Source of the DNA: Stackebrandtia endophytica
GTDB lineage: Bacteria; Actinomycetota; Actinomycetes; Mycobacteriales; Micromonosporaceae
Direction: 5' to 3'
Assembly (NCBI RefSeq): GCF_006716355.1
Contig: NZ_VFOW01000001.1
Location: 3,782,001 to 3,846,000, forward strand
DNA length: 64,000 nt
Under the pieces are notes generated by a model. The model did not search any database and had not been told where the DNA came from. It saw nothing but the letters and a program-made list of their open reading frames with translations. A program made the position numbers and the translations under genes. Each line of letters begins with the position of its first letter. Position 1 is the stretch's first letter. Positions 33,296-53,092 of this stretch are shown piece by piece.

Positions 33296-35383
33296 TTAAG
33301 CGTTAACCGCCACCGGGCGTGCGGCGGCGGTACGGGCCGCCGCCCGGCTGCCCAGGATGGCCCCGCCCAGGAAGACCAGCAGCATGTGCGCGGTGAACAG
33401 CGCGAACACCCACACCCCGATGCCCGGGATCAGACTGATCAGCAACACCACGACTCGGCCGTCCCAGCCCAGCCCGTACTCGCGGGAGTCGAGTGGGGAC
33501 GCGGCCTTGTCGACGCGCGCGGCCAGATCGTAGTGGTACAGCGACAACGCGAACAGCAGTCCGTACAGCAACGGCATCGGCACTCCGACGGCGAGACCGC
33601 ACGCGATCGCCAAGCCGTACTCGCCGGCCCGCAACGCACCGGGCACCAGCCAGTCGAACGGTCCGGCGTGCCGATGGGACGCGGTGAACACCGCGGTGAG
33701 GAACACCAGACCCGCCCCGGCGGTGATGAGCCGGGCGATGCCGAAGCCCTGCGCCGACACGACGATGGCAGCGGTGACCGCTACCAGGCCGATCGCCAAG
33801 ACCGGCAGCGGCGGCAGTCCCGCCCGACGCAGCAGTCGAACGATCGGGCCGTCGTCGCGGTGGGTGGCCTTGTCCGGCCGTGCCAACACCGCGACCTTCG
33901 CCGCCCACGACCGCAGGCCGCGACCGGCCAAGGTGTAGCCCAAGGCGATGAGTTGCCCGACCAGCAGCGCCGCCAACGCGATGCCGCCGTCGAAGATCGC
34001 CGCGCCCAGTCCCATGACCAGCCAGCGTTCCCCGACCGGGAAGACGATGGTGCGTTTGAACCAGTAGGCCGGGGTGCGACGCTGCGACGCGAACTGCGCC
34101 GAGAGCTTGCCGAGTTTCTTACCCAACCGAACCGCCGCCGAGCCGGGCGCGCCCGAGCCGGAGCCGGTGAACCCGTCGTCGGCGTACAGCAGGGACCTGG
34201 TGGCCTTGGCCAGGCTCGCGGTGTCCTGCATGGTGCCGTACCAGGTGTCGGTCATGTGCCGCACGACCTGCACGCCGATCGCGGCGATCGCCAACGGCCA
34301 CGCCCAGGCGATGCCGGAGGCGGCCGCACCGAACGCCAAGCCTCCATATAGGAGGTATTCCTTGCCCCGGTCGGCGATCATATCCAGCCAACCACCGAAG
34401 GCGCTGAACCGGTGCGTGTAGCGGGCCAGCTGCCCGTCCACGCAGTCGAACGTGAAGCTCGCGTACATCAGGACCGCGCCGACGATCAACGCCGTGCGGT
34501 CCGCGGTGGCGAACAGACCGGCCGCCACCACCGCCAACACGATCGAGATCCAGGTGACCCCGACCGGGGTCAACCGCAACTTCTGGCACAGTTTCACCAG
34601 GTGCCGGGAGTAGGAGCTGATGCTGTAGGTGGCGAACAGGTCGTCGTCGGCCTTGACGCACAATTGAAGCCGGACGGCGTCCTCGTCGCAGTCCTTGATG
34701 GCGGTCAGCAGGGCGTCGGTCTCGGCCTGGTCCACGGCTCGGCCGTAGGGCACTCCCGGAACGGAGTAGGCGGTGAGTTTGGTGCCGCGACGGGCCAGCG
34801 CCAACAGTGTCAGGGTCCAGGCGTCGGAACCGTCGGCCAGCTCGGCGACGTCGTCGGCGATCAGTTGACGTACCGCCGCGCGCAACTCCGACAGGTACGG
34901 CGTGCTGATCTTCAGGACTCCGCACGCCGCCCCGTTGGGTTGGCTCAGGTGGTGGAAGGTGGTCCCCACCGACAGGATCAGGCCGCGATCACGGAAGACG
35001 GCGGTGGCGGCGGTTCCGGCGTGGTCGGGGGAGCCGACCAGTGCGCCGGAGCGCTCGGTGGGGTCCGACAGCACCGATGAGATCGCCGTGTCGGCCAGCA
35101 GCGCGTCGGCGGTGAGGACCAGGATCGCCTCGTCGCCGTCGGCGCACGCCTCCGACAACAGTCGCAGGTCCGAGTCGACGTCGGTGGACGTCGTCACCCG
35201 GGCACCCTCCAACGGCAACCCCGGCATCAGTTCGGGACGGCCGATCACGGTCAGGTCGGTGACGTCGAAGCGGGCGAGTTGGCGACGCAACCGACCGAAC
35301 ACGGTGTCGCCGGTGACTTCGGGGTGCGGCGACGGGAGGAGTGCTTCGGCACCGTGAGTGGTGGCCAGTAGCACCGCACGCAT
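33296..35383 (-). CDS. CDP-alcohol phosphotransferase with N-terminal nucleotidyltransferase-like and C-terminal DUF5941-type domains
   Basis: 695 residues. Residues 1 to about 230 look like a divergent nucleotidyltransferase fold (AVLLATTHGAEAL, ILVLTADALLADTAI, no intact G-x-G-T-R loop). Residues about 260-430 are a CDP-alcohol phosphotransferase with the full motif DCVDGQLAR ... GGWLDMIADR (D-x2-DG-x2-AR-x8-G-x3-D-x3-D). The last ~250 residues are hydrophobic, as in DUF5941-containing actinobacterial proteins. The layout recalls inositol-phosphate cytidylyltransferase/DIPP-synthase fusions. Reaction: transfer of a phosphoryl-alcohol from CDP-alcohol to another alcohol at the membrane; the alcohols are unknown. 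Its ATG overlaps the stop of the ABC ATPase gene (TGATG), so the two are coupled. Confidence 0.88.
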   Translation of the reverse strand: MRAVLLATTHGAEALLPSPHPEVTGDTVFGRLRRQLARFDVTDLTVIGRPELMPGLPLEGARVTTSTDVDSDLRLLSEACADGDEAILVLTADALLADTAISSVLSDPTERSGALVGSPDHAGTAATAVFRDRGLILSVGTTFHHLSQPNGAACGVLKISTPYLSELRAAVRQLIADDVAELADGSDAWTLTLLALARRGTKLTAYSVPGVPYGRAVDQAETDALLTAIKDCDEDAVRLQLCVKADDDLFATYSISSYSRHLVKLCQKLRLTPVGVTWISIVLAVVAAGLFATADRTALIVGAVLMYASFTFDCVDGQLARYTHRFSAFGGWLDMIADRGKEYLLYGGLAFGAAASGIAWAWPLAIAAIGVQVVRHMTDTWYGTMQDTASLAKATRSLLYADDGFTGSGSGAPGSAAVRLGKKLGKLSAQFASQRRTPAYWFKRTIVFPVGERWLVMGLGAAIFDGGIALAALLVGQLIALGYTLAGRGLRSWAAKVAVLARPDKATHRDDGPIVRLLRRAGLPPLPVLAIGLVAVTAAIVVSAQGFGIARLITAGAGLVFLTAVFTASHRHAGPFDWLVPGALRAGEYGLAIACGLAVGVPMPLLYGLLFALSLYHYDLAARVDKAASPLDSREYGLGWDGRVVVLLISLIPGIGVWVFALFTAHMLLVFLGGAILGSRAAARTAAARPVAVNA

Positions 35384-36138
35384 CAGACGGGCACCTTTTG
35401 ATCCTCGACCTGCTGGTAGGCGGCCAGCGCGTCCTCGACGCTGCCGTCGACTTGGAGTTCGCCGCGGTTGAGGTAGAGGCCACGGGTGCAGAACCGGGTC
35501 AGGTCGCGTTCGCTGTGCGACACCAGGACCAGGGTGCGACCTTCATCCAATAGGGAGCGAATGACCTTGTAGCACTTCTTCTTGAAGCGCTTGTCACCAA
35601 CGGCCAGCGCCTCGTCGACCAGCAGGATCGGATGCTCCAGCTGCGAGATGACCGAGAACCCCAGCCGCACCTTCATACCGGAGGAGTAGTGGCGCACCGG
35701 GGTGTCGATGTGGTCCTCGACCTCGGCGAACGCGACGATCTCGTCGAACTTCGCCTTCAGGGTCTGCCGGCTCATGCCGTGCAGCGACGCCACCAGGTGA
35801 ACGTTCTCCCGGCCGGTCAGGTCGCCGGAGAACCCGGCCGACAGAGCGATCAACGGCGCGACCTTGCCGTGCCGGATCACCCGGCCCTCGTCGGGCAGCA
35901 GAACGCCCGCGATCAACCGCAGCAACGTCGACTTACCGGTTCCGTTGGAACCGATGACGCCCACGGCCTCACCCGGTTGAATCTTGAAGCTCAGGTTGCG
36001 CAGCGGCCAGAACTCCTCACCCTCCGGCTTGCGGTTGCCCCGGTGGATGAACATTTCACGCAGTTTGGCCTTCCGCCTGCGGCCGACGGCAAAGCGGACG
36101 CCGAGATTCTGGGCTTCGATGATGGGTTCTTCGTGCAT
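35383..36138 (-). CDS. ABC transporter ATPase, polysaccharide/teichoic-acid exporter type (TagH/Wzt-like)
   Basis: 251 residues from ATG 36138; the frame extends to 36216, but MHEEPIIEAQNLGVRF is the usual start. Walker A is GSNGTGKST, the ABC signature YSSGMKVRLGFSV, Walker B HPILLVDEAL and the switch VSHSERDLTRF. The NLGVRFAVGRRRKAKLREMF lead with FWPLRNLSFKI is characteristic of the exporter subfamily that flips lipid-linked teichoic acids, O-antigens or arabinogalactan. The usual partner, a TagG/Wzm-type permease, is not adjacent and not seen in this window. It heads a two-gene minus-strand operon and is divergent from the CDP-alcohol/IspD/TagF operon, so it probably exports that polymer. 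Confidence 0.88.
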   Translation of the reverse strand: MHEEPIIEAQNLGVRFAVGRRRKAKLREMFIHRGNRKPEGEEFWPLRNLSFKIQPGEAVGVIGSNGTGKSTLLRLIAGVLLPDEGRVIRHGKVAPLIALSAGFSGDLTGRENVHLVASLHGMSRQTLKAKFDEIVAFAEVEDHIDTPVRHYSSGMKVRLGFSVISQLEHPILLVDEALAVGDKRFKKKCYKVIRSLLDEGRTLVLVSHSERDLTRFCTRGLYLNRGELQVDGSVEDALAAYQQVEDQKVPV

Positions 36139-36633
36139 CGCCTTCTCAGAACTGTCTGGGATTCGGTTGTCTGGGGGTGGTTCTGCTCGGAGCATCCGAC
36201 ACCACCTGCCAGACACTCACGTCAATGATCCCGCGTCTGGATCGACCGGACGCGATTTCAGTCGCTTCGCATCAGCAGGGGACTCACCGACTTTACGCAA
36301 TGTTTTCGCGGGCGTTGTCGCGGCGAGGTTTCATCTGACTCATAATGCCACCTTCATCGCCACACGCACTGCCGGTCGCCGGTCTGCATCCGGCCCGCAT
36401 GCCGAGAAACGCCGTAGGTGTCCGAATCGCCAGGTACGACCGATGTGACGATAGCGCGCAGCACGGCATCGGCCGGGATTGATAACCTCGGCCGTCCGTC
36501 GGATGAGTGGGCGTGCGGTTGATCCGGACACGTTTCGTCGACGTGAGAGATGGGCAGGACGGTCAGGACGCGCTCCCAGCCCCGACCCGACGCGCCCATT
36601 CGAACGACATCGTTCTGAGCTTCGAGGAGACCG
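36139..36633. other. divergent intergenic region of the teichoic-acid-like block
   Basis: No gene supported. It must hold promoters for both the ABC ATPase (minus) and the CDP-alcohol phosphotransferase (plus). The visible structure is a hairpin made from two CGGCCG copies (36470-36475 and 36489-36494) around an AT-rich loop, about 140 bases before the plus-strand start. Confidence 0.4.
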
Positions 36634-37506
36634 GTGGAACGCGTAACCCGGGCACAGGTGTTGTCCACGTACAAAGAGCGCGACTCGTGGTGGACGGTCT
36701 TCCTCGTCGATCCGCTCGCAGGTCGACTGCTGTGGTTGGTGTCGGCATGGCGATGGGTCACCCCCAACGTCCTCACCATCGGTGCGTTCATCCTGGGTCT
36801 GGGATCGGCCGCCGCGTTCTGGCAGGCCGGATCGGTCGACAGCGCTTGGCCGTGGCTGGCCGGCGGTGCGCTGTTGTTCCACCTGAGTTTCACGCTCGAC
36901 TGCATGGACGGCAAACTCGCCCGACTGCGCGGTGGCGGCTCGCTGTTCGGCGGCTGGCTGGACTACATCCTCGACCGGCTGCGGGTGCTGGTGTGCACCC
37001 TGGCCCTGTTCGGCGGCCAGTACACCGCCACGGGCAACGCGATCTTCCTCTACCTCGGCACCGGCGTCGTGTTCTGCGACATGTTCCGGTACCTGAATGC
37101 GCTGTACCTCAAGGAGACCCGGCAGGGCATGCGCGCCAAACTCGCCGCCGCCCGGGGCACCACCGTCGACAAGATGCAGCTGCAGGACGAGGCCCAACTG
37201 GTGCTGTCGGAGCAGTCCGACGAGCGAGCCGACGGCGCCACCGTCGTCGACGTCCAACAGTCCTTCAAGCGACGCTTCGGATGGTTCACCCGAATGCGTG
37301 ACTTCCTGGTGCGCCACAGGGTGCGGTCCCACCTGTTCTCGGGCGTGGAGTTCCAGATGGCGATCTTCATCGTCGCGCCGTTGACGACCCTGATCTTCGG
37401 CATCACGGTCGCCTCCGTCGTGCTGCTCCTACTGGTCGAGGGGGCCGTCACCTACAAGCTGTACCTGTCGGCGCGCGACGTCGACCGGCAGCTGGCGGCC
37501 CGGTGA
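36634..37506 (+). CDS. CDP-alcohol phosphotransferase family membrane enzyme
   Basis: 290 residues from GTG 36634, with GAGGAG five bases upstream. Membrane spans surround the catalytic motif DCMDGKLARLRGG ... GGWLDYILDR, which keeps all four Asp residues and the Gly of the family. Residues about 185-225 form a soluble charged insert between hydrophobic regions (KLAAARGTTVDKMQLQDEAQ). It is the first of a tight operon: its stop overlaps the cytidylyltransferase start by four bases. With that enzyme supplying a CDP-polyol, this one probably attaches the polyol-phosphate to a lipid or sugar carrier, starting a phosphopolyol polymer. The exact substrate is unknown. Confidence 0.88.
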   Translation: MERVTRAQVLSTYKERDSWWTVFLVDPLAGRLLWLVSAWRWVTPNVLTIGAFILGLGSAAAFWQAGSVDSAWPWLAGGALLFHLSFTLDCMDGKLARLRGGGSLFGGWLDYILDRLRVLVCTLALFGGQYTATGNAIFLYLGTGVVFCDMFRYLNALYLKETRQGMRAKLAAARGTTVDKMQLQDEAQLVLSEQSDERADGATVVDVQQSFKRRFGWFTRMRDFLVRHRVRSHLFSGVEFQMAIFIVAPLTTLIFGITVASVVLLLLVEGAVTYKLYLSARDVDRQLAAR

Positions 37507-38222
37507 CCACCTCGGCGATTGCGGTCCTGCTCGCCGGCGGGATCGGGTCACGTATGGGCGCCGACCAGCCGAAGCAGTTCTTGAGGGTTGCCGGACGCGA
37601 ACTGCTGGCACACACCGTCGACGTGTTCGAGGCCTGCGACCGGGTGGACCAGATCCGGCTCTACCTGCCCGCCACCCACCGCTCCGCCGCCACCGACCTC
37701 GTCGACCGGTACGGCTACCGCAAGGTCACCGTGATCGGAGAGGGCGGAACCGACCGGGCCGGTTCGGTCCGGTGCGCGCTGGCCGACCTCGTCGATCAGC
37801 CCGACGACCGCAAGATCCTGGTGCACGACGCCGTCCGGCCGCTGGTGGACGTCGCCACCGTCACCGAATGTGTGAACCTGCTCGACAGGGTGTCGGCCTT
37901 GACGGTGGCCGTTCCGAGCACCGACACTATTCTGGACGTCGACTCCGGTTCATCTTTGCCGACGGTGTCCGGTATCCCCGACCGTTCCCGGATGTGGCGT
38001 TGCCAGACACCGCAAGGGTTCCGGTTGGGTGTGCTGGCGCGGGCTCACCGAGCGGCCGCCGCCGACCCCGACTTCACCCCGACCGACGACGGTGGAGTGG
38101 TTCGGCGTTACCTGCCGGAGGTCCCCATCGCGGTGGTCGACGGCGGGGAGCTCAACATCAAGGTCACCCACCCGGTGGACCTGCGACTCGCCGAGTCACT
38201 GCTGCGGGACAGGACACTGTAG
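37503..38222 (+). CDS. IspD/TarI-type cytidylyltransferase
   Basis: 239 residues, the usual family length. The CTP-binding loop is LLAGGIGSRMGADQPKQF, the middle motif ILVHDAVRPLV, then RCQTPQGFRLGVL, and the closing ELNIKVTHPVDLRLAE is typical. The family includes IspD (methylerythritol phosphate) and TarI/Bcs1 (ribitol-5-phosphate). The position between a CDP-alcohol phosphotransferase and a TagF-like polymerase argues for activating a polyol phosphate for a cell-wall polymer, rather than isoprenoid synthesis. Sequence alone does not decide. GTG start overlapping the previous stop (GTGA) indicates coupling. Confidence 0.85.
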   Translation: MTTSAIAVLLAGGIGSRMGADQPKQFLRVAGRELLAHTVDVFEACDRVDQIRLYLPATHRSAATDLVDRYGYRKVTVIGEGGTDRAGSVRCALADLVDQPDDRKILVHDAVRPLVDVATVTECVNLLDRVSALTVAVPSTDTILDVDSGSSLPTVSGIPDRSRMWRCQTPQGFRLGVLARAHRAAAADPDFTPTDDGGVVRRYLPEVPIAVVDGGELNIKVTHPVDLRLAESLLRDRTL

Positions 38223-39896
38223 ATGCGTCAACTGCTCACCAAGCTGGTCGGTACGGCACTGCCGTACGGACTTCCGGTCGCCTCCGTGGCGGCCTTCCTC
38301 CTGGTGCCCAACCCGTGGCCGGGATTCCTGCTGGCCGCTGCGACGCTGCTGTGGGGATTCTGGCGGTGGCGACTGGACGGCCTGGGGGAGTTCCTGCTCG
38401 GGCGGGTTCTGGTCGTGGCGGCGTTGTTGATCGGCTTCGCCGACGGAAGCTACAGCGGCTTGACCGACCGACCGGTCGGCATCGGCGTCGCCGAAGCCAT
38501 CAGCGGAACCCTGTTGCTGGCGCTCATCGCGTTCGAACCCCGGCTGGTGGTCGCGCTGTCGACCCGGCGACTGGCCACCGAGAACCTGCCGGTGCGGCGA
38601 GGCCCCGGGGAGAAGTGGATCAACCCGCGCAGCGCCTACCTGTTGACCTCGGCGCTCACCATCGGATTCTGGTTGACCGCCGTCACCGGTGTCGACCCGT
38701 GGATCCTCACCGGGGCCTGTGCCGTCGCCACCGTCGGCTTCGCCGGCGCCACCGTCGGCGCCTGGTACCTGCGTCGCCGTCGCCCCCACGCCGGCGACGT
38801 CGGAGTCGTCGCCGCGGTCCGGCAACACCGGCCCAGGTTCGCGGTGCACTTCGCCGCGCCGCCGGGGTCGGAGTACCAACTCCTGATGTGGCTGCCCTAT
38901 TTCGACCGGATCGGCGACCCTTACGTCGTCATCCTGCGGGACCGGGCCTTCCTGCCGACGATGGCGGCGGTGACCGCTGCGCCGGTGGTGGTGGCTCCGG
39001 GGATCGCCGACGTCGAATCCGTGATGGTCGACGGTATCCGCGCGGTGTTCTACGTCAACAACAGCATGCAGAACACCCAGTGCGTGCGGTTCGCCGAGTA
39101 CACCCACGTTCAGTTGATGCACGGCGACAGCGACAAGCCCGCCAGCTACAACCCGATCAGCGCCATGTACGACCGGATCTTCGTGGCCGGACAGGCCGGC
39201 ATCGACCGGTATCACCGCCACGGCATCGACATCCCGACCGAGAAGTTCCGCATCGTCGGGCACCCGCAGGCCGCCCGGGTACTGGTGCCCGGCGGTGCCC
39301 GTCCCGCCGATCGGCCGCCGGTCCTGTTGTACGCGCCGACCTGGACCGGACTGTCGTCCGACGCCAACTTCTGTTCGTTGCCCATCGCCGAGCGCATCTG
39401 CCGGACCGCGCTGGAGCGGGGCGCCACCGTCATCGTCCGGCCGCACCCCTACACCCGGCGCAATCCGGCGGCGGCCCGGCAACTGGACGCGGTGGAGCAG
39501 CTGCTCGCCGCCGACGCCGCGCAATCGGGCCGCGATCACAAGTACGGCAAGGTCACCAGCGAACAGATGTCGCTGATCGACTGCATCAACGCCGCCGACG
39601 TGATGGTCTGTGACGTCTCCGGTGCCGCCTCCGACTGGCTGTACTCGGAGAAGCCGTTCGCGATCACCGACATGACCGGCGTGGGCGCCGGCCTGGTCGA
39701 CGAGTTCCCGTTGGCGCAGGCCGCCTATCCGGTCGACCGTGACGCCGGCAACCTGAGCCGGGTGTACGACCTGCTGTTGGACTCCGACCCGTTGGCGCAG
39801 GCACGTCACAAGATGAAGCAGTACTACATGGGTGAGTTCGCGCCCGGCGAGTACGAGGAGGGGTTCCTGGAAGCCGCCCGCGACTGCTACCGCTGA
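38223..39896 (+). CDS. TagF-like CDP-polyol phosphotransferase with N-terminal membrane domain
   Basis: 557 residues, starting directly after the cytidylyltransferase stop. The first ~190 residues contain about six hydrophobic spans (VASVAAFLLV, LLGRVLVVAALLIGFA, AYLLTSALTIGFWLTAV and others). The remainder is a GT-B fold of the CDP-glycerol glycerophosphotransferase family: VNNSMQN, HVQLMHGDSDKPASYNP (catalytic-type His), LLYAPTWTGL, IVRPHPYTRR and DVMVCDVSGAASDWLYSEKP. These enzymes polymerise glycerol- or ribitol-phosphate in teichoic acids, working at the inner membrane face. The fused membrane part is unlike Bacillus TagF, which uses amphipathic helices. It completes the three-gene operon. 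Confidence 0.88.
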   Translation: MRQLLTKLVGTALPYGLPVASVAAFLLVPNPWPGFLLAAATLLWGFWRWRLDGLGEFLLGRVLVVAALLIGFADGSYSGLTDRPVGIGVAEAISGTLLLALIAFEPRLVVALSTRRLATENLPVRRGPGEKWINPRSAYLLTSALTIGFWLTAVTGVDPWILTGACAVATVGFAGATVGAWYLRRRRPHAGDVGVVAAVRQHRPRFAVHFAAPPGSEYQLLMWLPYFDRIGDPYVVILRDRAFLPTMAAVTAAPVVVAPGIADVESVMVDGIRAVFYVNNSMQNTQCVRFAEYTHVQLMHGDSDKPASYNPISAMYDRIFVAGQAGIDRYHRHGIDIPTEKFRIVGHPQAARVLVPGGARPADRPPVLLYAPTWTGLSSDANFCSLPIAERICRTALERGATVIVRPHPYTRRNPAAARQLDAVEQLLAADAAQSGRDHKYGKVTSEQMSLIDCINAADVMVCDVSGAASDWLYSEKPFAITDMTGVGAGLVDEFPLAQAAYPVDRDAGNLSRVYDLLLDSDPLAQARHKMKQYYMGEFAPGEYEEGFLEAARDCYR

Positions 39897-40132: not shown

Positions 40133-40556
40133 CCACAGGTTTCTCCGACAACGCCCGGTTGGCCCCCGATGACGCGACCGGACACCTCGGTCGTGAGCTG
40201 GGGATGCCGTCCTGGGGGCATCGAGCCATATAACTTGCTGGGTTAACAGTGGCCGGCTACCTCACCGACCGCACGCGAACAGTTGATCAACGAGAAGGGG
40301 TATTGTCGGATTCCGCGTGATAAACCCTGTCGTTGTGTTGGTCGAGTCGAGCGGCGCGGCGTGGACATGACATCCCCGCGTCGCACGGCAACGGCGCCTG
40401 ACGCGGATTCGTGACGGCCCACCGCCGTATTCAGCGTTTTCGAGCGGGATCGTCCACCACGGCCGAATGCCGGACACACTGACACGACACAGGCATCTGA
40501 AAGGTCCCGCCAATGGTGGTGGGTCAAACGAAACGTTCCAAAGCCAAGGAGAGATC
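40133..40556 (+). other. long leader region of the phosphonate operon
   Basis: No gene supported. A short hairpin, GATGCC/GGCATC, sits near 40202-40221, followed by an AT-richer patch (ATATAACTTG, GGGTTAACAG) that may hold the promoter. The operon start codon is TTG 40557 with AGGAG (40547-40551) five bases upstream. The frame stays open back to 40467, but those codons read as non-coding. Confidence 0.4.
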
Positions 40557-41867
40557 TTGTCGAGCAAGCCCACCGTTTACGTGGGGATGAGCGCCGACCT
40601 CGTCCACCCCGGCCATATCAACATTCTCCAGAAGGCGGCTGAACTGGGTGACGTCACGATCGGTCTGTTGACCGATGCGGCGATCGCCAGCTACAAGCGG
40701 CTACCCCACATGACCTACCAGCAGCGCCGGGCAGTGGTGGAGAACATCAAGGGCGTGACGGCGGTGGTGCCGCAGGAGACCCTGGACTACGTCGCGAATC
40801 TGCGCGATCTGAAGCCGAACTTCGTCGTTCACGGTGACGACTGGCGCACCGGGGTGCAGGCGCAGACCCGGCAGCGCGCCATCGACGCCTTGGCCGAGTG
40901 GGGCGGTGAACTCGTCGAGGTCGAATACACCGAAGGCATCTCCTCCACCCAGCTGAACCGGTCGGTGAAGGAGGTCGGCACCACCCCCAACGTGCGGTTG
41001 TCCCGGCTTCGTCGCCTGATCGAGAACAAGCCGCTGGTGCGGATCCTGGAGTCGCACTCCGGCCTCACCGGACTCATCATCGAGACCGCCACCGCCGAGC
41101 ACGAGGGCCGCAAGGTCGAGTTCGACGGCATGTGGTCGTCCTCGCTGACCGACTCGACGGCCCGCGGCAAGCCCGACATCGAGCTGGTCGACCTCAACTC
41201 GCGGCTGCAGACCATCAACGACCTGTTCGAGGTCACCACCAAGCCGCTCATCTACGACGGCGACACCGGCGGTAAGCCGGAGCACTTCTCCTACACCGTG
41301 CGGTCGCTGGAGCGCCTGGGCGTCTCCGCGGTCATCATCGAGGACAAGGAGGGGCTGAAGCGCAACTCGCTCTTCGGCACCGAGGTCGCGCAGACCCAGT
41401 CCTCGATCGAGGACTTCGTGCACCGCATCCAGGTGGGCAAGAAGGCGCAGATCACCAAGGACTTCATGATCATCGCCCGGATCGAGAGCCTGATCCTGGA
41501 GCAGGGCATGGAGGACGCGGTCACCCGCGCCAAGGCCTACATCGAGGGTGGCGCCGACGGCATCATGATCCACTCGCGGCAGAAGAGTCCCGACGAGGTC
41601 TTCGAGTTCTGCGAGCGCTTCTCGAACTTCGAGAAGAAGGTTCCGCTGGTGGTGGTCCCGACCAGCTACAACACCGTCACCGAGGAGGAGTTCGCCAAGC
41701 GCGGCGTCAACGTCGTCATCTACGCCAACCAGCTGATGCGCGCCTCCTACAAGGCGATGTCCAGCGTGGCCAAGTCCATTCTGGAGAACGGCCGGTCGGC
41801 GGAGGTAGACTCCCAGATCGCCAACATCAAGGAAGCCCTGGCGATCATCCCGGAGAACGAATCGTGA
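40557..41867 (+). CDS. pepM: phosphoenolpyruvate mutase with N-terminal cytidylyltransferase domain
   Basis: 436 residues from TTG 40557, decided by a strong ribosome site. Residues 1 to about 135 are a cytidylyltransferase-like domain: [18 protein letters not shown] carries the H-x-G-H nucleotide motif. Residues about 150-436 are PEP mutase of the isocitrate-lyase superfamily: [10 protein letters not shown] near residue 261 is the E-D-K-x-G-x-K-x-N-S signature that separates mutases from lyases, with [11 protein letters not shown] earlier and [15 protein letters not shown] later. Reaction: PEP to phosphonopyruvate, the entry to nearly all natural phosphonates. The fused cytidylyltransferase suggests that the final phosphonate is activated as a CMP ester for transfer to a glycan or lipid. 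Coupled (GTGA) to the next gene. Confidence 0.93.
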
Positions 41868-43000: not shown

Positions 43001-43005
43001 ACCGT

Positions 43006-43050: not shown

Positions 43051-43115
43051 GCCGACTTCCAACCGAGCCGTCTAGGCTCGCATCAACTCGAACCCCCCTG
43101 ACCGAGGAGAAGGCC

Positions 43116-44483: not shown

Positions 44484-46586
44484 ATGGCCGCGCAGTCATC
44501 GTTCTTTGTTCGAAAGCTCTTGAGGGGTGGCCCTCTTCGAATAGGAACCATTGCGCTTCGGCGACAGTGGTGGTCGTTGCTGGAGGTCAGCACTCGTTGG
44601 GCACAGTCGGTTGATCCCGATGCCGGGATCGTCGTCTTTCGTCGAGGACTGGTCGCGGAGAAGAAGGCGGGGGACTTCGACGCCGCAACGGCCCTCTACC
44701 TGCGTGCGGTGCAGACCGAGCCGTATCAGTTCCCGTGGTACCGGCAGTTCGCCGAAGCCGTTCGTGTGAGTGCGGGGATCGAGGCGCAGCTGACCGCGTA
44801 TGACGATGCGGTGAAGCAGGGCATGGGTCTTCCTGCCATGTGGGACGTGCTGCGGGCGAGCGCCTATGAGGCGAGCGGTCGAAACGAGGAGGCGATCGCC
44901 GAGTATCGACGGATCATCGCGATGCCCGGTCTGCGACTGGGCGTGGCCCCGTGGATGTATATCGCCGGTGCCTGCGAACGCCTTCTCGACCACCCGGCAG
45001 GTGTTCGCGCGTTGCAGATCGCGGTACGGGAGGATGGCGACGATGTGTCGGCCCGGCGGGCGCTTGCGGCGGCGCTCGGGGGGATCGGCGAATGGGAGGA
45101 GGCCGAGAAGCATTACCGTACCTTGGTCGATAATGGACAGCCGAACCTGGCGGTACGCTATTCTTGGGCGATCAACGCCGAACGGGAGTACCGGACGCCG
45201 TTTCAACTGCACACCGACCTGGAATCGTCGTCGACGGTTCCACGCGACCGCAGTGAGGGGCGTGCCAAAGAGGCGTTCAACACCGCGGTATCCCTGATGC
45301 ACCATCTGCTTGACGCGTCGCCACATCGAATTCGAACCGCGCATCGTCTCGGCCGACTATACGAAGCGGCCGGAATGCTGCAGGAAGCCGCTTCGGCTTA
45401 TACCGAGGGCCTGCGACGACTGGCTTCCATCGATGAGGCGTGGGTACATAAAGCGGTCATCGATTGGCAGTTCAGGCTCGACTATGTGAAGCATCAGATG
45501 TCGACATCTCTGAGCGATGACGTCCGCATGGCTCGCACCGTGATTCCCGGTCCCCAGCCGGAACACCCTCACAAGGTCATCGGCTTCTATGAAGGACACC
45601 TCATCAATCGTGGCCTCAGTATCAGTGGGTTCGTGCTGAACCGGGATGTCGATTCCGTCGAGCTTCAGATCGACGGTGTCCGTGTCAAGGAGGTCGTCGT
45701 TGACGCACGTAGCTGGATGCCCGGCTTCAAATTCCTGATCACCAATGACACGCTGCGGTTGTTGAATCCGCAGAGCCAGTTGACCATCGGGGTGGGTGCA
45801 GAACGGCTTCAAACCCAGGGTGGCGCGGAATACCTGCGATTGGACGTGCCCGACGGTGAGGGGGGACTGTTCGATCGATTGTCCTCCGGGGCGAGCATCA
45901 GCAAGAAGGGCGTGCTGAGCCGGTCGAGAAGCGGGGCCGACCATCGTCTCCGCTATCTCGATGTGTACGGCAGGGTGAACCGGGACTTCCGTGACCTGAC
46001 GGGACGAAACCTGGTGCTGCTTTATGGAACACTGTTGGGCTGCTACCGAGACGGCCGTTTCATTGACGGCGACGATGACTTCGACATCGGTTTCATGTCC
46101 GACGGAACCGATCCGGATAGCCTGAAGAAAGACTGCCTACGGATCATGTTGGGTCTCATAGACCGTGGATATGATGTGAGTCTTGCCCTGGATGGACGAA
46201 TGTTCAAGATCCATCTCGACGGTATGACACTCGACGTCAATCCCCTGTGGTTCTTCGAAGATCGAGTGTGGGGTTTCCAAGGTCATGCGATCACGCCCGA
46301 TGCGATCGAACCGTCGATTGAGATGGAGTTCGAGGGATCGGTGGTCCACATTCCCGCCAATAGTGAAGCCCTCCTCGCGGACAACTACGGACCGACATGG
46401 CGTAAGCCGGAGCCCGGGTTCCGTTACTACCGAAGCGACCACGACCTGAAGGTGCTTCAACGTGGTCGGCTGGTTCCCAGCGAGGTCCGCGCCCTCAGGA
46501 CCCGAGTCGCCAAGGTCCGACGTGCCAACCCGTCCGCCGGTGACTTCGTCGGGTTCAGCGACCCCGAGGACCTCGCGTTCGGATAG
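44484..46586 (+). CDS. TPR-LicD protein, candidate phosphonate/phospho-alcohol transferase (copy 1)
   Basis: 700 residues from ATG 44484 (GAAAGG six bases upstream); TTG and GTG codons further up lack a site. Residues about 45-330 are helical TPR-like repeats (GDFDAATALYLRAVQTEPY, GRNEEAIAEYRRII, EWEEAEKHYRTLV, GMLQEAASAYTEGLRRL). Residues about 370-470 are beta-rich (GLSISGFVLNRDVDSVELQI). Residues about 495-660 are a LicD nucleotidyltransferase-fold domain: LVLLYGTLLGCYRDG and FIDGDDDFDIGF supply the glycine motif and metal Asp residues near 511-535. LicD moves phosphocholine from CDP-choline onto surface glycans, and FKTN/FKRP relatives move ribitol-phosphate from CDP-ribitol. Beside a CMP-phosphonate route it is a good candidate for placing the phosphonate on the polymer. 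Confidence 0.85.
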   Translation: MAAQSSFFVRKLLRGGPLRIGTIALRRQWWSLLEVSTRWAQSVDPDAGIVVFRRGLVAEKKAGDFDAATALYLRAVQTEPYQFPWYRQFAEAVRVSAGIEAQLTAYDDAVKQGMGLPAMWDVLRASAYEASGRNEEAIAEYRRIIAMPGLRLGVAPWMYIAGACERLLDHPAGVRALQIAVREDGDDVSARRALAAALGGIGEWEEAEKHYRTLVDNGQPNLAVRYSWAINAEREYRTPFQLHTDLESSSTVPRDRSEGRAKEAFNTAVSLMHHLLDASPHRIRTAHRLGRLYEAAGMLQEAASAYTEGLRRLASIDEAWVHKAVIDWQFRLDYVKHQMSTSLSDDVRMARTVIPGPQPEHPHKVIGFYEGHLINRGLSISGFVLNRDVDSVELQIDGVRVKEVVVDARSWMPGFKFLITNDTLRLLNPQSQLTIGVGAERLQTQGGAEYLRLDVPDGEGGLFDRLSSGASISKKGVLSRSRSGADHRLRYLDVYGRVNRDFRDLTGRNLVLLYGTLLGCYRDGRFIDGDDDFDIGFMSDGTDPDSLKKDCLRIMLGLIDRGYDVSLALDGRMFKIHLDGMTLDVNPLWFFEDRVWGFQGHAITPDAIEPSIEMEFEGSVVHIPANSEALLADNYGPTWRKPEPGFRYYRSDHDLKVLQRGRLVPSEVRALRTRVAKVRRANPSAGDFVGFSDPEDLAFG

Positions 46587-46657: not shown

Positions 46658-46665
46658 GTCGTCGA

Positions 46666-48765
46666 TCAGCCGATGAAACGTCCAAGTGGATAGAACTCCT
46701 GCGAACCAACGGAGAAGAATCGGCCTGCATCGGGATTACCCGCGGTCTCCCGCTTCACCCGATCCGCCAGGTCTCGATACTCCGGAATCGTGATCAGCGC
46801 TTCCGACAGGTGTCGTAGCACCGACGGGTGGACGTCGGAGTCGTGGTACGTGAAACCGGGGTCGGGAACATTCCAGCTGGCCCCATATTGGTTGCGTAGG
46901 AATTTCTCGGTGGCGGCGGGGACTGCGACCTCGATGTCCCGCAGTTTCCCCGTGGTGACGGGAAGGAAGTCTTCTCTCGTCGCCGGGAACGAACAATTGT
47001 TGTGCAGCCAAACGTTGCCGTTTCGGAACCAGATGGGATGCAGGTCCAAGTGCATGTCCTGCTCATCGACCTCCTCGGCCAACTGCACCCGTAGCAGGCG
47101 GCCACGTCGGTTGAAGCTGACCACGAAGCCGGCCTTGACCAACTCCACGATGATGTCAAAGGCCTCGGCCTTGACCTGTTGGGGTTCGGAGTGGGCGCTG
47201 ATCCAGCCACCGTCGAAATCATCGTCGCCCTTGATGAAATCGCCCTCTCGGTGATAGCCCAACAACGTGCCGTAGATCAGAAACAGCGACTTGTCCAGTT
47301 CGGTTTCGAAGAACTCGCGAACCCGTGCGTAGGTCCGCAGGTACCGATCCTGGCGGTCACGGGTCTGCTCGGACGTATACGGGATGCCCCCCTTCTTGTC
47401 CAGGGTGTGCCCCGACCTGGCGAACTTCATGGCCGACCCGTCGCCGTGCGGGATGCTCAATCGCATCAGGTCGCCGCCGGCGGCAGCCTGCAGTGGCTGT
47501 CCATCGGCCGTGGTCACGGTGATGTCGGCGGTTACGGGAAAATACGGCAGTGCGTTGCGCCCGGCCGCGTAGACGAAAGTTCCCAGGATCTCCGAATTAT
47601 CGACCTTCACTCGACGAATCGGCACGCCGTCGAGTGAGATGGTCAGTTCCTGACAATCCACGGCAGACACAAGCCCTGAAAGATGCAACCCCGAGTAGGT
47701 GATCTGGGCGAAGAACAGGCCGGGGATCCTCCCCGCCGTCGGCGCGGGTACCGGTTCGGGAACTGTTACGGCGCAGTCGAAGTGTGGGTCCTCGACTCGA
47801 GCCTCACCGAGGCTGGCACGTGCGGACTCGATCTTGTATTGCCAGCGGTGTTTGACTGCGAAGGTCCAGGTGCCTTTGGCCTTCTCGGCCATCCCGAGTG
47901 CTTCCTCGTAGGCCGCTATGCATTTTTCGAGGTCTCCTACCGCAGCATGCGCGTCCGCCAAGCCGGACCGCCACCGGATGCGACGTGGTTTGAGGGTTGT
48001 GGCTTGGACGAAGGCCTTCAACGCCGCCTTCCGGCATGTGACGACGCTGAGATCGGATTCCCTGGCGGTTTCCGGAATGGGAGTGAACACCAGCGCTTCC
48101 CGGCCGCCATCCACCGGGCCGGTGAAGGTGCCGCGCCATTTGGCGATCAGCGCACAGATCCGGCCCAATCTCAGTTGTGCTTCCGCATCGTTGGGCTTGA
48201 TCCGTACGTAGCTGGTCAGGGCTTCCTTCGCCTCTGCCCAATGGCTCAAGGCGGTGTACGCCTCGGCCAGCTCCCACAACAGTGTGGCCGTGCATATGCC
48301 GGAACGACGGATCTGTTGACCGGCGAGCACGATTCCGACATTGCTTTCGACTTTCTTGGCGGTGCAGCGCAGTTGCCACGCGTGAGGTAGTGGTGTGTCA
48401 TCAGCCGCGCAGGCGTCCCGGGCGGCGCGGTATGCCGCCTCGTGTTTCTCCTGTTTGGAGAGAATAACGCTGAGCTCGTGGGACCAACTGGCTCTGGCCA
48501 GTTCAAGGCGTTTCGAGGGCGCGGGTTCCCTGCTCGACTTCAGCGCTACCCGGTAGGCGGCCTCAGCCTCGGCCCACCTTCCGATCTGTCGTAGCGCGTG
48601 ACCGAGCTTGGCCGCACCCGGCCCGGACTGCTGGTTGCGCAACAACCGAACCGAAATGTGCCAGTAGGCGTACTTGGGGGCCGATCGGAGGCGCCGAAAC
48701 ACAGAGGCGATCTTCACATTTGATCCTGAGAATGGGCGATTGGGCTGGCGCTGATCGTAGCCCAT
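46666..48765 (-). CDS. TPR-LicD protein (copy 2)
   Basis: 699 residues from ATG 48765 (AGGGA about seven bases upstream); a GTG at 48717 with AGGA six bases upstream is an equally good alternative giving VKIASVFRRLRS. The architecture equals copy 1: TPR-like repeats (IGRWAEAEAAYRVALKSS, SHWAEAKEALTSYVRIKPN, GDLEKCIAAYEEALG), a beta-rich linker (GLHLSGLVSAVDCQELTISL) and a LicD domain with LFLIYGTLLGYHREG and FIKGDDDFDGGW near residues 493-520. The two copies are convergent and well diverged, so they probably have different acceptors or positions on the chain. Predicted role: transfer of a phospho-alcohol or phosphonate from a CDP/CMP donor. Confidence 0.85.
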   Translation of the reverse strand: MGYDQRQPNRPFSGSNVKIASVFRRLRSAPKYAYWHISVRLLRNQQSGPGAAKLGHALRQIGRWAEAEAAYRVALKSSREPAPSKRLELARASWSHELSVILSKQEKHEAAYRAARDACAADDTPLPHAWQLRCTAKKVESNVGIVLAGQQIRRSGICTATLLWELAEAYTALSHWAEAKEALTSYVRIKPNDAEAQLRLGRICALIAKWRGTFTGPVDGGREALVFTPIPETARESDLSVVTCRKAALKAFVQATTLKPRRIRWRSGLADAHAAVGDLEKCIAAYEEALGMAEKAKGTWTFAVKHRWQYKIESARASLGEARVEDPHFDCAVTVPEPVPAPTAGRIPGLFFAQITYSGLHLSGLVSAVDCQELTISLDGVPIRRVKVDNSEILGTFVYAAGRNALPYFPVTADITVTTADGQPLQAAAGGDLMRLSIPHGDGSAMKFARSGHTLDKKGGIPYTSEQTRDRQDRYLRTYARVREFFETELDKSLFLIYGTLLGYHREGDFIKGDDDFDGGWISAHSEPQQVKAEAFDIIVELVKAGFVVSFNRRGRLLRVQLAEEVDEQDMHLDLHPIWFRNGNVWLHNNCSFPATREDFLPVTTGKLRDIEVAVPAATEKFLRNQYGASWNVPDPGFTYHDSDVHPSVLRHLSEALITIPEYRDLADRVKRETAGNPDAGRFFSVGSQEFYPLGRFIG

Positions 48766-49304
48766 GGTGAATCCCTGACGACCGAATGGATTCGCCGATC
48801 TTTCCGGGGGCGTCTGACCAATTCGGACGTGCCCGTGGAACGGGTGGGAGCGGCCTAACATTTCGTTGCCGTCGCCCGGCGCGATCAATCACCTGCCTGA
48901 GGTGGATATCCGAGATCGTGGTCATCGACGTCGGCCGGTACATGTCGTGCAGTTCTTGTCGGCCAGGTGATGTGCCTACCGATATGCGATGCGGTCTCGC
49001 CACGATTGGCCAACCCAGCCACCCGGTCGCGGTCGCCGCCGTGCGGTTCGGCTCACCCGGCCGAACTCACCACAGAGCGGTTTCCTACCTACGGTGGGTG
49101 ATCCCTCGTATGGGGCAATTGTGACATTTACTGCCCGGGAGGGCTGGGGTCCGCCGGATTCCGGATGCGGACGGCTAACGTTTACCTACACGCCGTCGGG
49201 TGGCTACCGGGGCTAGCGCCTGGTGTCGGGGTTGGGATTTTCGGCTACAGTTCGCCCTGGGAGGCGCAAAACTATTCATTCGTTTGAACGAGGGGTCTTC
49301 CGTC
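48766..49304. other. divergent intergenic region before the Stealth-fusion gene
   Basis: No convincing gene; the open plus-strand frames here lack ribosome sites and protein-like composition. The Stealth frame remains open back to 49200. ATTGTGACATTT at 49118-49129 recurs with one change at 53118-53129 upstream of the mce operon, a possible shared regulatory site. Confidence 0.4.
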
Positions 49305-51974
49305 GTGAGTGTTGCTTTCGTGGTCACCACCGCGTATCAACTGTTCCATTACAAGAATATTGCGGCGCATCTGTCTGATGTAACCGCGGTACTTGAAGTG
49401 CGGGAACAGGATTTCGAGCTTACCGAAGAGGTCATTGCCAAACACCTCCCCGGGGTAGCCGTCGAAACCGTTTCCCGTGAGCGGTTGAAAGACCTCGACG
49501 GCCGCTTCGACGCCGTTGTGTGTCAAACCCCGATCCTGCCGCTGGAATTCTTTGATTCCAGTTACGTGATCGCGCAACAATACAGTTTGGCCAAAGAGAA
49601 CTATCAATACGGCGTGTGGCGTGCACAGGCCGACCTCAACCTGATGTACGGGGACTACTCGGTCGGAAAGGTCGAGGGATTCAGCCGGGCGGTCGCGGTG
49701 GGCAACCCGTTGCTCGACCCCTACTTCGCGCAGCCGACGACCCGACGCGGATGGTCGGCCACCGAACGCAACCGCATCCTCTACATGCCGACCTACGGCT
49801 CGTTGTCCTCGATGCAGTCGGTGCTGCCGGTCCTGCGGGAGCTGGACGCCGACATCACGATCAAGCTTCACCACGCCGAGACCCTCGAACTGGACTCACT
49901 CCCGGCCCATATCAGTGTCGTCGGTGCCGAGGACGACCCGTGTGTGCTGTTGGCCGAGCACGACGGCGTCCTGAGCGACTTCTCCGGCGCGGCTTTCGAC
50001 GCGCTGTACGCGGGTGTTCCGACGGTGGTGTGCGGCACCGTCGACCTCAACAGCAAGGATCTGGTCCGACTGTCCGATTCGGAGCGGGAGCAGTCGACCC
50101 TGGCGTCGTTGGCCGGCACCTGGCAGCCCGACCGGGGGGCCGCGGCCCTGTTGGAGGCATTCTCGACGGCCGAGGAACTGCAGACCGGCGACGAGTACGA
50201 GATGTTCCGGAAACGGTTCTTCATCAACCCCGGTACCGCCGGGGAGGCCTGCGCCGCCCAGATCCGTGAACTCATCGACACCGGCAGGAGCGAACACTTC
50301 GGCTCGGACCAGGTCCGTTCGACGGTTCGCCGCTACGTCACCTCCAATCGGCAACTCAAGGGCAAGCAGCCCCGCCCCGCCGCCACGCCGGCAGCCCGTT
50401 CACAACCACCCTCCCGGCGCGCGATCCGCCGGGTACGGCAGATCGCGGCGCGGTCGGACCGTCTGGTGAGGTTGGCGCGAAGAGTCAGACGCCGGGTGCG
50501 GGAACGGCGTCAACCCGAGATCGTCGTCAACACCTCGGCGTCGCTGGGCGCCGCGCCCGCCAGCCGCCGGGAGGCCGTGCTGCGGCTGCTGACCCCGTTC
50601 CTGACCGACGGCGGTATCGAACTGGCCCGCGACAACGACCGGGTCGGCTCCGACGTCGCCGCCCTGGCCGGTGACAAACGCAAACTTCATCGCGTGTTGA
50701 TGGCCGCCGCCGTAGAACACCCCGAATTGATGGTGCGGGTCGGCAACCAGTGGCAATTGGTCGACACCCTGCCGTTGAGCAAACTCAGCTTCCACGACGT
50801 CACCTACGCCGACTGGCTCGAGATCGGTACCACCGCCGAACACAGCAACTACGCGATCGGTGCGATGGGGTACCTGACCGTCCTGTTCGTGGAGCACCAG
50901 AAGGAACGCAACCGGTACCTGGCTCAGAAGAAGGTCGCCAACCGGGTCGACTGGACCCCGCTGTTCACCCAGACCACCACGCAGACGACCGGGCCGATCC
51001 GGGTGTCCGGCGAGGTGATCCAGCACGCGGCCGGGCCGATCGACGTGGTCTACACCTGGGTGGACTCCGCCGATGCGAACTGGCAGCGCGATCGCGCCCG
51101 TTTCGACGCGCAGACCGCCAACGCCAGCGCCGCCAACGCGGAGCGGTTCATCGACCGGCAGGAACTGCGGTATTCGCTTCGCGCGTTGGAGCTGTTCGCG
51201 CCGTTCGTGCGTGACATCTACATCGTGACCGCCGGGCAACACCCCGAGTGGTTGGCCAAGGATCATCCCCGGGTGCGAGTGGTGTCGCACCGGGAGATCT
51301 TCCCCGACGAGTCGATGCTGCCGACGTTCAACTCACATGCCATCGAGGCGTGCCTGCACCGGATCCCGGGCCTGTCGGAGAACTTCCTGTACTTCAACGA
51401 CGACGTATTCGTCGGTCAGGAGGTCGAGGCCTCCGATTTCTTCACCATCGCGGGCCAGGCGAAGGTGCGATTGTCTCCCTCGCAGTACATCTATCAGGGG
51501 GAGCCGGAGGCCGACGCGATTCCAACCGACTGGGCTGCCTACAACTCACTGCAGTTGATCGCCAAGGACTTTGACATCACTTTCGACCGGCGGGTCAAGC
51601 ACGTTCCGCTGGTGTTGAAGAAGAGCGTGCTGGCCGAGATCGAACAGCGCTTCCCGCAGGAGATCGAGCGTACGCGGGCGGCTCGATTCCGGTCGGTGAC
51701 CGATATCGCGGTGCCCAGCATGTTCGCGCAGTACTACGGCATGGCCGGCGGCCAGGCGGTGGAGTGGCCGGGTGCTCGCAACGAGTACGTCTACCTCGAC
51801 ACCGGTCGCGCCGACTCGCTCGACCGGTTCCAGCAGATTCTTCAACGGCCGCCGAAGTTCTTCTGCCTCAACACGACTCGCCACACCGAAGTGGATCTGC
51901 CGACGCAGGCGCAGAACCTGGCGAAGTTCTTCACCTCGGCGTTCCCCGATCCGGCGAGCTGGGAGGTTCCGTAG
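49305..51974 (+). CDS. fusion of a TagF-like GT-B domain with a Stealth capsular phosphotransferase
   Basis: 889 residues from GTG 49305, where SVAFVVTTAYQLFHYKNI starts a Rossmann strand; the frame is open to 49200. Residues 1 to about 340 resemble CDP-glycerol glycerophosphotransferases (ILYMPTYGSLSSMQSV, ADITIKLHHAETL, GVLSDFSGAAFDALYAGVP). A basic linker (about 370-430, many R and P) follows. Residues about 575-886 carry the four Stealth regions: CR1 IDVVYTWVDSADANWQ, CR2 RFIDRQELRYSLRALELF with NFLYFNDDVFVG, CR3 HVPLVLKKSVLAEIEQRF, CR4 CLNTTRHTEVDLP. Stealth proteins add sugar-1-phosphate from UDP-sugars, building phosphodiester-linked capsules. The pairing suggests alternate addition of polyol-phosphate and sugar-phosphate. 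Confidence 0.87.
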   Translation: MSVAFVVTTAYQLFHYKNIAAHLSDVTAVLEVREQDFELTEEVIAKHLPGVAVETVSRERLKDLDGRFDAVVCQTPILPLEFFDSSYVIAQQYSLAKENYQYGVWRAQADLNLMYGDYSVGKVEGFSRAVAVGNPLLDPYFAQPTTRRGWSATERNRILYMPTYGSLSSMQSVLPVLRELDADITIKLHHAETLELDSLPAHISVVGAEDDPCVLLAEHDGVLSDFSGAAFDALYAGVPTVVCGTVDLNSKDLVRLSDSEREQSTLASLAGTWQPDRGAAALLEAFSTAEELQTGDEYEMFRKRFFINPGTAGEACAAQIRELIDTGRSEHFGSDQVRSTVRRYVTSNRQLKGKQPRPAATPAARSQPPSRRAIRRVRQIAARSDRLVRLARRVRRRVRERRQPEIVVNTSASLGAAPASRREAVLRLLTPFLTDGGIELARDNDRVGSDVAALAGDKRKLHRVLMAAAVEHPELMVRVGNQWQLVDTLPLSKLSFHDVTYADWLEIGTTAEHSNYAIGAMGYLTVLFVEHQKERNRYLAQKKVANRVDWTPLFTQTTTQTTGPIRVSGEVIQHAAGPIDVVYTWVDSADANWQRDRARFDAQTANASAANAERFIDRQELRYSLRALELFAPFVRDIYIVTAGQHPEWLAKDHPRVRVVSHREIFPDESMLPTFNSHAIEACLHRIPGLSENFLYFNDDVFVGQEVEASDFFTIAGQAKVRLSPSQYIYQGEPEADAIPTDWAAYNSLQLIAKDFDITFDRRVKHVPLVLKKSVLAEIEQRFPQEIERTRAARFRSVTDIAVPSMFAQYYGMAGGQAVEWPGARNEYVYLDTGRADSLDRFQQILQRPPKFFCLNTTRHTEVDLPTQAQNLAKFFTSAFPDPASWEVP

Positions 51975-52024: not shown

Positions 52025-52064
52025 GGTGATCGGTCGCATACATCGTGTATGTCGATCGGTCACC
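52025..52064. repeat. imperfect inverted repeat between the Stealth and GT-D genes
   Basis: The core CATACA-tcg-TGTATG is flanked by GGTGA and TCACC in mirror positions, giving a 40-base symmetrical element; GATCGGTC also occurs twice as a direct repeat (52028 and 52054). It may terminate the Stealth transcript or bind a regulator of the next gene. Confidence 0.5.
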
Positions 52065-52153
52065 CCTCCACATCATTCACCACACGGGCGGTCGACATCC
52101 ACTCCGGACGACCGATTTCGCGACCGACCCAGCGAATAGGACGGAGGGGAGCA

Positions 52154-53092
52154 GTGAGTCTGCGATCCAGCTGGCGCAGCGTGATGCGGCTCCGCCACGA
52201 ACTGAGCCAAGCGGTCACCACATTGGGTGCCATTCGGACGGAGATGGCCCGGCGTAACGAGCTCGACTCGCGTTCGGATGATCTGCGCGCGATTCGGGAG
52301 GAGTTGCGGCTGCACCGCCGCTACTACGAGATCGCCCGGCACTGGATGCTCGACTCGGTGATGCGGGAGATCTCCGAGGTCACCGACCGCTGTCAACTCG
52401 ACTTCGCCGCGACCCTGCACCATCTGATCGATCGGCGCGTCAACTTCGCCCGGTTCGGCGACGGTGAGTTTCGGCTGATGCTGCGTCCCGACCACAACAC
52501 CCGGTTCCAAGTGGGCGACCCGCAACTGCGGACACAGTTGCGGCGGGTCTTCACCCTGGACGGATATGACCCCGATCGGGTGCTGGTCGGTTTCCCGCAT
52601 CCGTACCGGAAGAACCTTCACTGGTGTGGTGTGTGGATGGACGTGTGGCCCGACTTGCGAGAGCTGATGCCGGCCGAGCCCGTTCTGGGCAACAGTCACG
52701 TCACCCGGCCCATCTTCTTCCAGCAGTTGCGCGAGGAGGGCGTCAAACTGTGGCGTCAGGTGTGGGAGGGGCGGCGCGTCACCGTGGTCACCGGAGAGGG
52801 GTCCCGGTTCAATTTGCCCGATGAGCTGTTCGACAACGTCGAGTCCATCGACATGCTGTACTCGTTGCCGGAGAACGCATTCGAGGATCTGCCCCGGATG
52901 GTCGACACGATCGGTGAGTTGGACACCGACCTGGTGCTGATCGCGCTGGGCCCGGCGGGGACGGTGTTGTCGGCTCAACTGTCCTGTCACGACATCTGGG
53001 CCGTCGACGTCGGACACATCTCCAACAGTTGGCAGACGATTTATCAGGACGCACCGATGCCCGAGCGACTGGAGACGGTCCGTTCGGAGTGA
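52154..53092 (+). CDS. GT-D fold (DUF1792-like) glycosyltransferase
   Basis: 312 residues from GTG 52154, with GGAGGGGA about four bases upstream; the longer frame to 52049 reads as leader. After a charged coiled-coil-like lead (RHELSQAVTTLGAIRTEMAR, LRAIREELRLHRR) the catalytic domain begins: VNFARFGDGEF near residue 97 holds the D-G-E metal motif of GT-D enzymes, followed by LGNSHVTRPIFFQQL and ALGPAGTVLSAQLS ... AVDVGH. Characterised GT-D enzymes add glucose late in streptococcal adhesin glycosylation. Here it follows the Stealth gene and probably adds a sugar to the same surface polymer. Confidence 0.8.
   Translation: MSLRSSWRSVMRLRHELSQAVTTLGAIRTEMARRNELDSRSDDLRAIREELRLHRRYYEIARHWMLDSVMREISEVTDRCQLDFAATLHHLIDRRVNFARFGDGEFRLMLRPDHNTRFQVGDPQLRTQLRRVFTLDGYDPDRVLVGFPHPYRKNLHWCGVWMDVWPDLRELMPAEPVLGNSHVTRPIFFQQLREEGVKLWRQVWEGRRVTVVTGEGSRFNLPDELFDNVESIDMLYSLPENAFEDLPRMVDTIGELDTDLVLIALGPAGTVLSAQLSCHDIWAVDVGHISNSWQTIYQDAPMPERLETVRSE

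Follow-up and report, generated by a model that had tools for sequence, protein, structure and literature searches.

What becomes of a phosphonate whose synthesis genes lie among those for cell-surface polymers? The question is raised by a locus at positions 33296-53092 of the window, the 64-kb stretch of Stackebrandtia endophytica DNA analysed here, which belongs to a single-contig genome of 5,663,490 bases. In this locus the genes for the phosphoenolpyruvate (PEP) mutase PepM, the phosphonopyruvate decarboxylase Ppd and an iron-containing alcohol dehydrogenase (Fe-ADH) are found beside two LicD genes and genes of the TagF and Stealth types. We consider it likely, with a probability of roughly 80%, that this is a phosphonoglycan locus, in which PepM, Ppd, the Fe-ADH and a cytidylyltransferase domain would provide 2-hydroxyethylphosphonate (HEP) activated with cytidine monophosphate (CMP-HEP), and HEP would be moved to a surface glycan by LicD or, less likely, by a TagF-type protein. 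Bacterial phosphonate is thought to be mostly surface-bound, and its tailoring after formation of the C-P bond has been called enigmatic (available part of PMC6697681). The genes listed in an earlier note on this DNA were all found where, or close to where, that note had put them, as long open reading frames (ORFs) with high third-position GC content that match Pfam or NCBIfam models.

The phosphonate core and the LicD proteins

PepM (40467-41867, + strand; TIGR02320, 413 bits versus a cut-off of 319.6) is a fusion of CTP_transf_like and PEP_mutase domains with the architecture of Fom1, in which a PF01467 domain carrying HxGH and ISST motifs lies N-terminal to the PEP mutase. The motifs HPGH and ISST, which we take to be those of the cytidylyltransferase, are intact, so that the loss of catalytic residues from this domain, suggested earlier as a sign that the proposal fails, was not observed. 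Residues 33-170 of the N-terminal domain align (E = 4e-68) with the solved domain 5x3d, which is listed in the database as a phosphoenolpyruvate phosphomutase and which we take to be Fom1. The motif EDKx5NS, given as that of PEP mutase in the available text of PMC6697681, is intact too, and according to the same text the cytidylyltransferase domain of Fom1 produces CMP-HEP. The Ppd gene (41864-43000, + strand), which together with a PEP mutase carrying EDKx5NS is the combination by which we recognised a phosphonoglycan locus, overlaps pepM by 4 bases, and its product scores above the curated NCBIfam cut-off (TIGR03297, 444 versus 312.5 bits). It is followed by the Fe-ADH gene (42918-44264, + strand; Pfam), the presumed phosphonoacetaldehyde reductase. 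Most homologues of the Fe-ADH align only from about residue 63-70, so that the ORF has no support over its first ~60 residues; the true start is probably near 43100.

Two genes for LicD proteins with tetratricopeptide repeats (TPR-LicD) follow at 44439-46586 (+ strand) and 46666-48888 (- strand). Both products have the PF04991 domain with a DDDxD-type motif (GDDDFD, intact), the second being just over the cut-off (23.7 versus 22.6 bits), and the LicD alignment profile finds the fukutin-related protein 6kaj (E = 2e-22). The first copy is the best candidate for the HEP transferase. When TPR-LicD was counted at E ≤ 1e-15 among 101 relatives (9 with pepM and 92 without), it was detected in 9 genomes, namely in 7/9 of those with pepM (all E ≤ 2e-46) and in 2/92 of those without (Fisher p = 7e-8); within Glycomyces the matches (2/22) fell on 2/3 and 0/19 genomes, respectively (p = 0.013), both p-values overstating the significance because the relatives are not independent. 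The two genes need not be linked: their positions in S. nassauensis are 0.79 Mb for TPR-LicD and 6.02 Mb for pepM, and in the relative G319 they are 50 kb apart.

PepM of this type was present in all 5 Stackebrandtia genomes compared, including S. nassauensis and S. albiflava. In Glycomyces sp. NRRL B-16210 (locus L019), PepM, Ppd and ADH are 88%, 76% and 64% identical to the window proteins, and the locus also has a TagF-like protein, a GT-D protein and two TPR-LicD genes. Gene order was compared, as had been proposed as a check: each of the six named Glycomycetaceae loci, and S. nassauensis as well, has PepM-Ppd-Fe-ADH accompanied by a TagF-like gene, a recurrence that goes beyond chance. 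In 2014 Yu et al. reportedly identified the phosphonate of purified phosphonoglycans as 2-HEP, and we assume that the strain numbers in the papers citing that work are equivalent to those of the strains compared here. The core genes are common to both published producers, NRRL B-16210 and S. nassauensis (G301), with the LicD gene unlinked in the latter and GT-D matched only in the former. The available parts of PMC8931226 and PMC7858074 cite Yu et al. for having purified phosphonoglycans from both strains; PMC7858074 also mentions a locus for phosphonoglycan biosynthesis in Glycomyces NRRL B-16210, and S. nassauensis DSM 44728 is named as a phosphonoglycan producer in the available part of PMC12723261. 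As far as these citing papers tell, the earlier note was right in naming both genera as producers. Since relatives with the same genes are published phosphonoglycan producers, the locus is a further example of a known system and not a new kind.

For PepM, Ppd and Fom1 the reactions catalysed are established in their families. From the gene identities, intact motifs, conservation and co-occurrence observed we infer HEP as the product, its transferase and acceptor and the means of export, together with the substrates and activities, as follows. PepM would convert PEP to phosphonopyruvate, which Ppd would decarboxylate to phosphonoacetaldehyde, and the Fe-ADH would reduce this to HEP; the cytidylyltransferase domain of the PepM fusion would then form CMP-HEP from HEP and CTP. 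HEP would next pass from CMP-HEP to hydroxyl groups on a surface polysaccharide, with release of CMP; the enzyme for this would be either or both of the TPR-LicD proteins or, with lower probability, the TagF-family protein encoded next to pepM. The polymer backbone would be built by the GT-D and Stealth proteins (glycosyl- and hexose-phosphate transferases) and exported, perhaps by a TagH-type transporter. The route to HEP with CMP-HEP as the likely donor, as previously proposed, agrees with the Fom1-like cytidylyltransferase-PepM fusion followed by Ppd and Fe-ADH, and the surface glycan as destination is supported by the co-occurrence of LicD and by the same PepM/Ppd/ADH/LicD genes in the two published phosphonoglycan producers.

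Competing readings of the transfer step and the product

In addition to the p-values that overstate the significance, several observations weigh against this explanation. The Fe-ADH scores under the NCBIfam PsrA cut-off, because of which its substrate stays unassigned. Two relatives with pepM, G034 and G300 (the latter a draft of about 200 contigs), gave no TPR-LicD match, and Glycomyces salinus (L022) has only shorter LicD-like genes by pepM, of which one that was checked is without the DDDFD pattern. Moreover, two genomes without pepM have weak TPR-LicD matches (E = 4e-22 and 8e-16). TagF-like genes are also enriched in the relatives with pepM (8/9 versus 14/92, p = 1e-5), and LicD is therefore not singled out by co-occurrence alone.

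The TagF-family protein encoded next to pepM (38223-39896, + strand; Glyphos_transf, PF04464, 34.4 bits versus a cut-off of 22.1) could accordingly be the CMP-HEP transferase in place of LicD, setting single HEP units or chaining them, although we regard this as rather unlikely. It keeps both catalytic histidines of the TagF family; a work listed among the references of PMC5974469 calls two histidines critical in TagF in its title. The occurrence of TagF-like genes in 8/9 relatives with pepM also speaks for such a role, as does a comparison across phyla. Among 38 PF04464 genes of 35 genomes, 22 fall inside PepM loci (19 of 36 loci), where ~0.08 would be expected from the density outside; these 36 loci were hand-picked with long flanks, all outside Glycomycetaceae and Streptomyces, and 10 other loci of at least 14 kb were left out. 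On the other hand, the 14 relatives that have TagF-like genes without pepM count against it, an IspD-like gene lying close in all 9 of these whose surroundings were inspected. In addition, the copy in the window clusters with the S. nassauensis one that adjoins IspD, and the pepM-linked copies do not form a single clade. In S. albiflava a GT2 + PF04464 fusion (L018:13803-17321) directly follows the pepM trio, at the place where the window has a TPR-LicD gene.

The wider set comprised the best 80 of 301 PepM loci found, which are those nearest to the window PepM and not a sample of all PepM. In the DNA covered at these loci, Ppd was present in 80/80 and Fe-ADH in 74/80, and the three genes were consecutive on one strand in 65/80 under a strict rule, with four more showing small overlaps; of the six loci without ADH, four are under 12 kb, and L058 and L085 are long. 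In 72 loci outside Glycomycetaceae and Streptomyces, our own profiles found PF04464-type genes in 29, LicD in 21 and both in 2 (Fisher p = 6e-4), and in the 45 such loci of at least 14 kb the numbers were 22, 13 and 2 (p = 0.007), with neither in 12. Pfam confirmed 43/47 PF04464 and 31/35 LicD profile members, so that a few counted members are unconfirmed, and six matches to UDP-GlcNAc 2-epimerase-like proteins, into which the iterated TagF profile had drifted, were dropped before counting. On well-supported branches of the PepM tree, with 30 unlabelled rows left out, the state 'PF04464 only' needs at least 7 changes and 'LicD only' at least 8. PF04464 and LicD tend to replace one another near the same PepM type, with repeated switching, and the simplest reading would be that both families do the same step, a transfer from CMP-phosphonate. 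No report of this cross-phylum pairing of LicD or PF04464 with PepM was found in the literature searched, which leaves most subscription journals outside. A bolder extension, which we hold to be unlikely, is that surface polymers across phyla generally draw on CMP-HEP as a donor, by way of interchangeable LicD and TagF-branch transferases; the TagF type might join HEP units into chains or use HEP to link sugars, giving a teichoic-acid-like polymer with C-P bonds in its backbone, and Fom1 would have been recruited from such a surface pathway.

Three Bacteroidota loci encode proteins of ~1000 residues near PepM and a PF04464 gene (L036:15062-18106, L028:5633-8650 and L031:14767-17805). These have a YidC-like (60KD_IMP) N-terminus and, in 2/3, a C-terminus of the sulfatase superfamily, the third having a weak Phosphodiest match; members of the cluster occur in 6/80 PepM loci. 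This unusual fusion might move or transfer polymer units.

The remaining alternatives concern the product and the unity of the locus. A pathway ending in a small molecule, either free HEP or a fosfomycin-like compound, would fit the Fom1 architecture of the PepM fusion and its 71% identity to the Streptomyces wedmorensis fusion (L027) that is presumed to be Fom1. The gene set of fosfomycin biosynthesis, which we take to be C-methylase, epoxidase and CMP-hydrolase genes by pepM, was absent from the 43 window ORFs scanned with Pfam (no radical-SAM methylase, epoxidase-type cupin or DUF402, although unscanned small ORFs could escape), glycan enzymes are encoded around pepM, and the occurrence of LicD follows that of pepM; we therefore find this reading very improbable. 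Attachment of aminoethylphosphonate (AEP) by a Pnt pathway, for which LicD-like genes near AEP clusters can be quoted (available part of PMC6697681), appears the least probable of all. No aminotransferase was matched among the same scanned ORFs, with no search made for unlinked ones in the rest of the genome, Fe-ADH is kept in most related PepM loci, and the cytidylyltransferase is of the PF01467 type, as in Fom1, and not of the PF12804 type that was shown to act on AEP (same source). The pepM cluster and the glycan genes could also be neighbours by chance and act separately, in line with the occurrence of the block to the left of pepM as a separate module in many relatives without pepM; in view of LicD tracking pepM even when unlinked, and of the TagF-like gene next to pepM in S. 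nassauensis and each of the six named Glycomycetaceae loci, we give this little credence. The transfer of HEP by LicD to a surface glycan remains our preferred explanation.

The left block and other glycan genes

The left block begins with a CDP-OH_P_transf + DUF5941 protein containing a CDP-alcohol phosphotransferase domain (33296-35383, - strand; Pfam) and an ATPase of an ATP-binding cassette (ABC) transporter of the TagH/Wzt polymer-export type (35383-36216, - strand), whose best NCBIfam matches, teichoic-acid export/TagH, are under the curated cut-offs. On the + strand they are followed by a CDP-alcohol phosphotransferase (36634-37506; CDP-OH_P_transf, Pfam), an IspD-like cytidylyltransferase (37503-38222; PF01128, 2e-50) and the TagF-like gene. 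The IspD-like protein is unconfirmed as a true IspD because its TIGR00453 score of 176.7 bits is below the cut-off of 181.3, and it possibly makes a CDP-polyol; it also matches PF12804. A second full-length IspD paralogue at the left edge of the window is likewise just under the curated cut-off.

The gene order DUF5941-ATPase / CDP-alcohol transferase-IspD-TagF-like-PepM-Ppd-ADH is kept in Stackebrandtia, with two tandem TagF-like genes at the corresponding place in S. nassauensis. The block had been counted as part of the phosphonate system, a view not supported in that form, since many pepM-less relatives carry it. DUF5941 proteins occur in 36/101 relatives (6/9 with pepM and 30/92 without, Fisher p = 0.065), and on account of the 30 genomes without pepM we rejected the idea that the DUF5941/CDP-alcohol/TagH/IspD block is dedicated to the phosphonate; in G305 and G322 the DUF5941-ATPase-IspD-like-TagF-like genes are present in the absence of pepM. 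TagF-like proteins were found in 22/101 relatives, 14 of them pepM-less. In a 28-row tree, whose group labels we assigned from gene surroundings, the window copy joined the other Stackebrandtia copies and the IspD-adjacent S. nassauensis copy (100/98), and the six pepM-linked copies need four changes; a pepM-specific clade was sought in this tree and not found. Given the pepM-less carriers and this grouping, the left-hand genes appear to be an older module for the envelope, with pepM as a neighbour, and the embedding in a teichoic-acid block would be positional. An ABC2_membrane permease gene ~8 kb upstream of the window (L181:11005-11868) encodes a possible partner of the TagH-like ATPase.

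To the right of the LicD genes, a TagF-like domain is fused to Stealth, a family of hexose-1-phosphate transferases (49200-51974, + strand). The Stealth half of this previously proposed TagF-Stealth fusion holds, with regions CR1-CR4 (Pfam) and a match to CpsY 8j2n (E = 4e-58); the N-terminal half, found by our own profiles and not by Pfam, keeps the later histidine region and lacks the HG motif in four Stackebrandtia copies (one partial), and hence one of the two TagF histidines. A phosphodiester glycan is a plausible polymer in view of Stealth and PF04464. The glycosyltransferase with a GT-D fold (52049-53092, + strand; Pfam) is sporadic and was dismissed as a core gene, being present in 2/101 relatives besides two Glycomyces.

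Directly right of the locus lies a run of MCE-family genes (53216-58878), which S. albiflava keeps, with a Rhamno_transf homologue between the Stealth and MCE genes. Window positions 1-15000 and 20 kb upstream (L181) form a further glycan region with two AT3-SGNH acyltransferases, glycosyltransferases, the ABC-2 permease, the second IspD paralogue and a GT2/TarS-linker protein fused to UDP-glucose dehydrogenase. A lectin-domain protein (15450-18938) adjoins a large protein at 18990-24023 with weak RHS-repeat and SpvB-type matches.

Comparison with known systems

The closest counterparts are the loci of Glycomyces NRRL B-16210 and S. nassauensis, which share with the window PepM of the same type (88-89% identity), Ppd, Fe-ADH, a TagF-like neighbour and a genomic TPR-LicD. 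The window differs in having the TagF-Stealth fusion and two TPR-LicD genes by pepM, the LicD gene of S. nassauensis being elsewhere, and, like other Stackebrandtia, it has by pepM the TagH/CDP-alcohol/IspD module that was not seen there in Glycomyces. For a wall teichoic acid locus, which would combine a TagH/TagG exporter, synthesis of a CDP-polyol and a TagF-type polymerase, the window offers candidate parts in its ATPase, IspD-like and PF04464 genes, the nearest ABC-2 permease gene noted being ~8 kb upstream of the window. With TagF-type capsule polymerases and Stealth proteins such as CpsY it shares a PF04464 protein with both histidines and the Stealth regions CR1-CR4; the TagF half of the fusion differs in being without the HG histidine.

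The AEP system with PntC shares the logic of a CMP-phosphonate donor with LicD-like transferases nearby (available part of PMC6697681); the window, in contrast, has PF01467 fused to PepM instead of PF12804, an alcohol dehydrogenase instead of an aminotransferase, and LicD with TPR repeats. The likeness to Fom1 extends to domain order, both motifs and sequence identity, but the window has glycan transferases and no identified fosfomycin tailoring enzymes. On the PepM tree, the fusions from S. wedmorensis and S. viridochromogenes (L025) form a group (100/94) with the PepM of a Nonomuraea, which is flanked by a pair of TPR-LicD genes, and this group is joined (95/81) by a Propionibacteriales PepM that has a LicD gene nearby. 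This would suggest, without showing it, that Fom1 was taken over from a surface pathway, the root of the PepM tree being arbitrary. The comparison also hints at a possible origin of the CMP step in fosfomycin biosynthesis; it points to cultured strains suited to work on the transfer step, and as enzymes open to testing there it puts forward TPR-LicD in Actinomycetes and PF04464 or LicD elsewhere.

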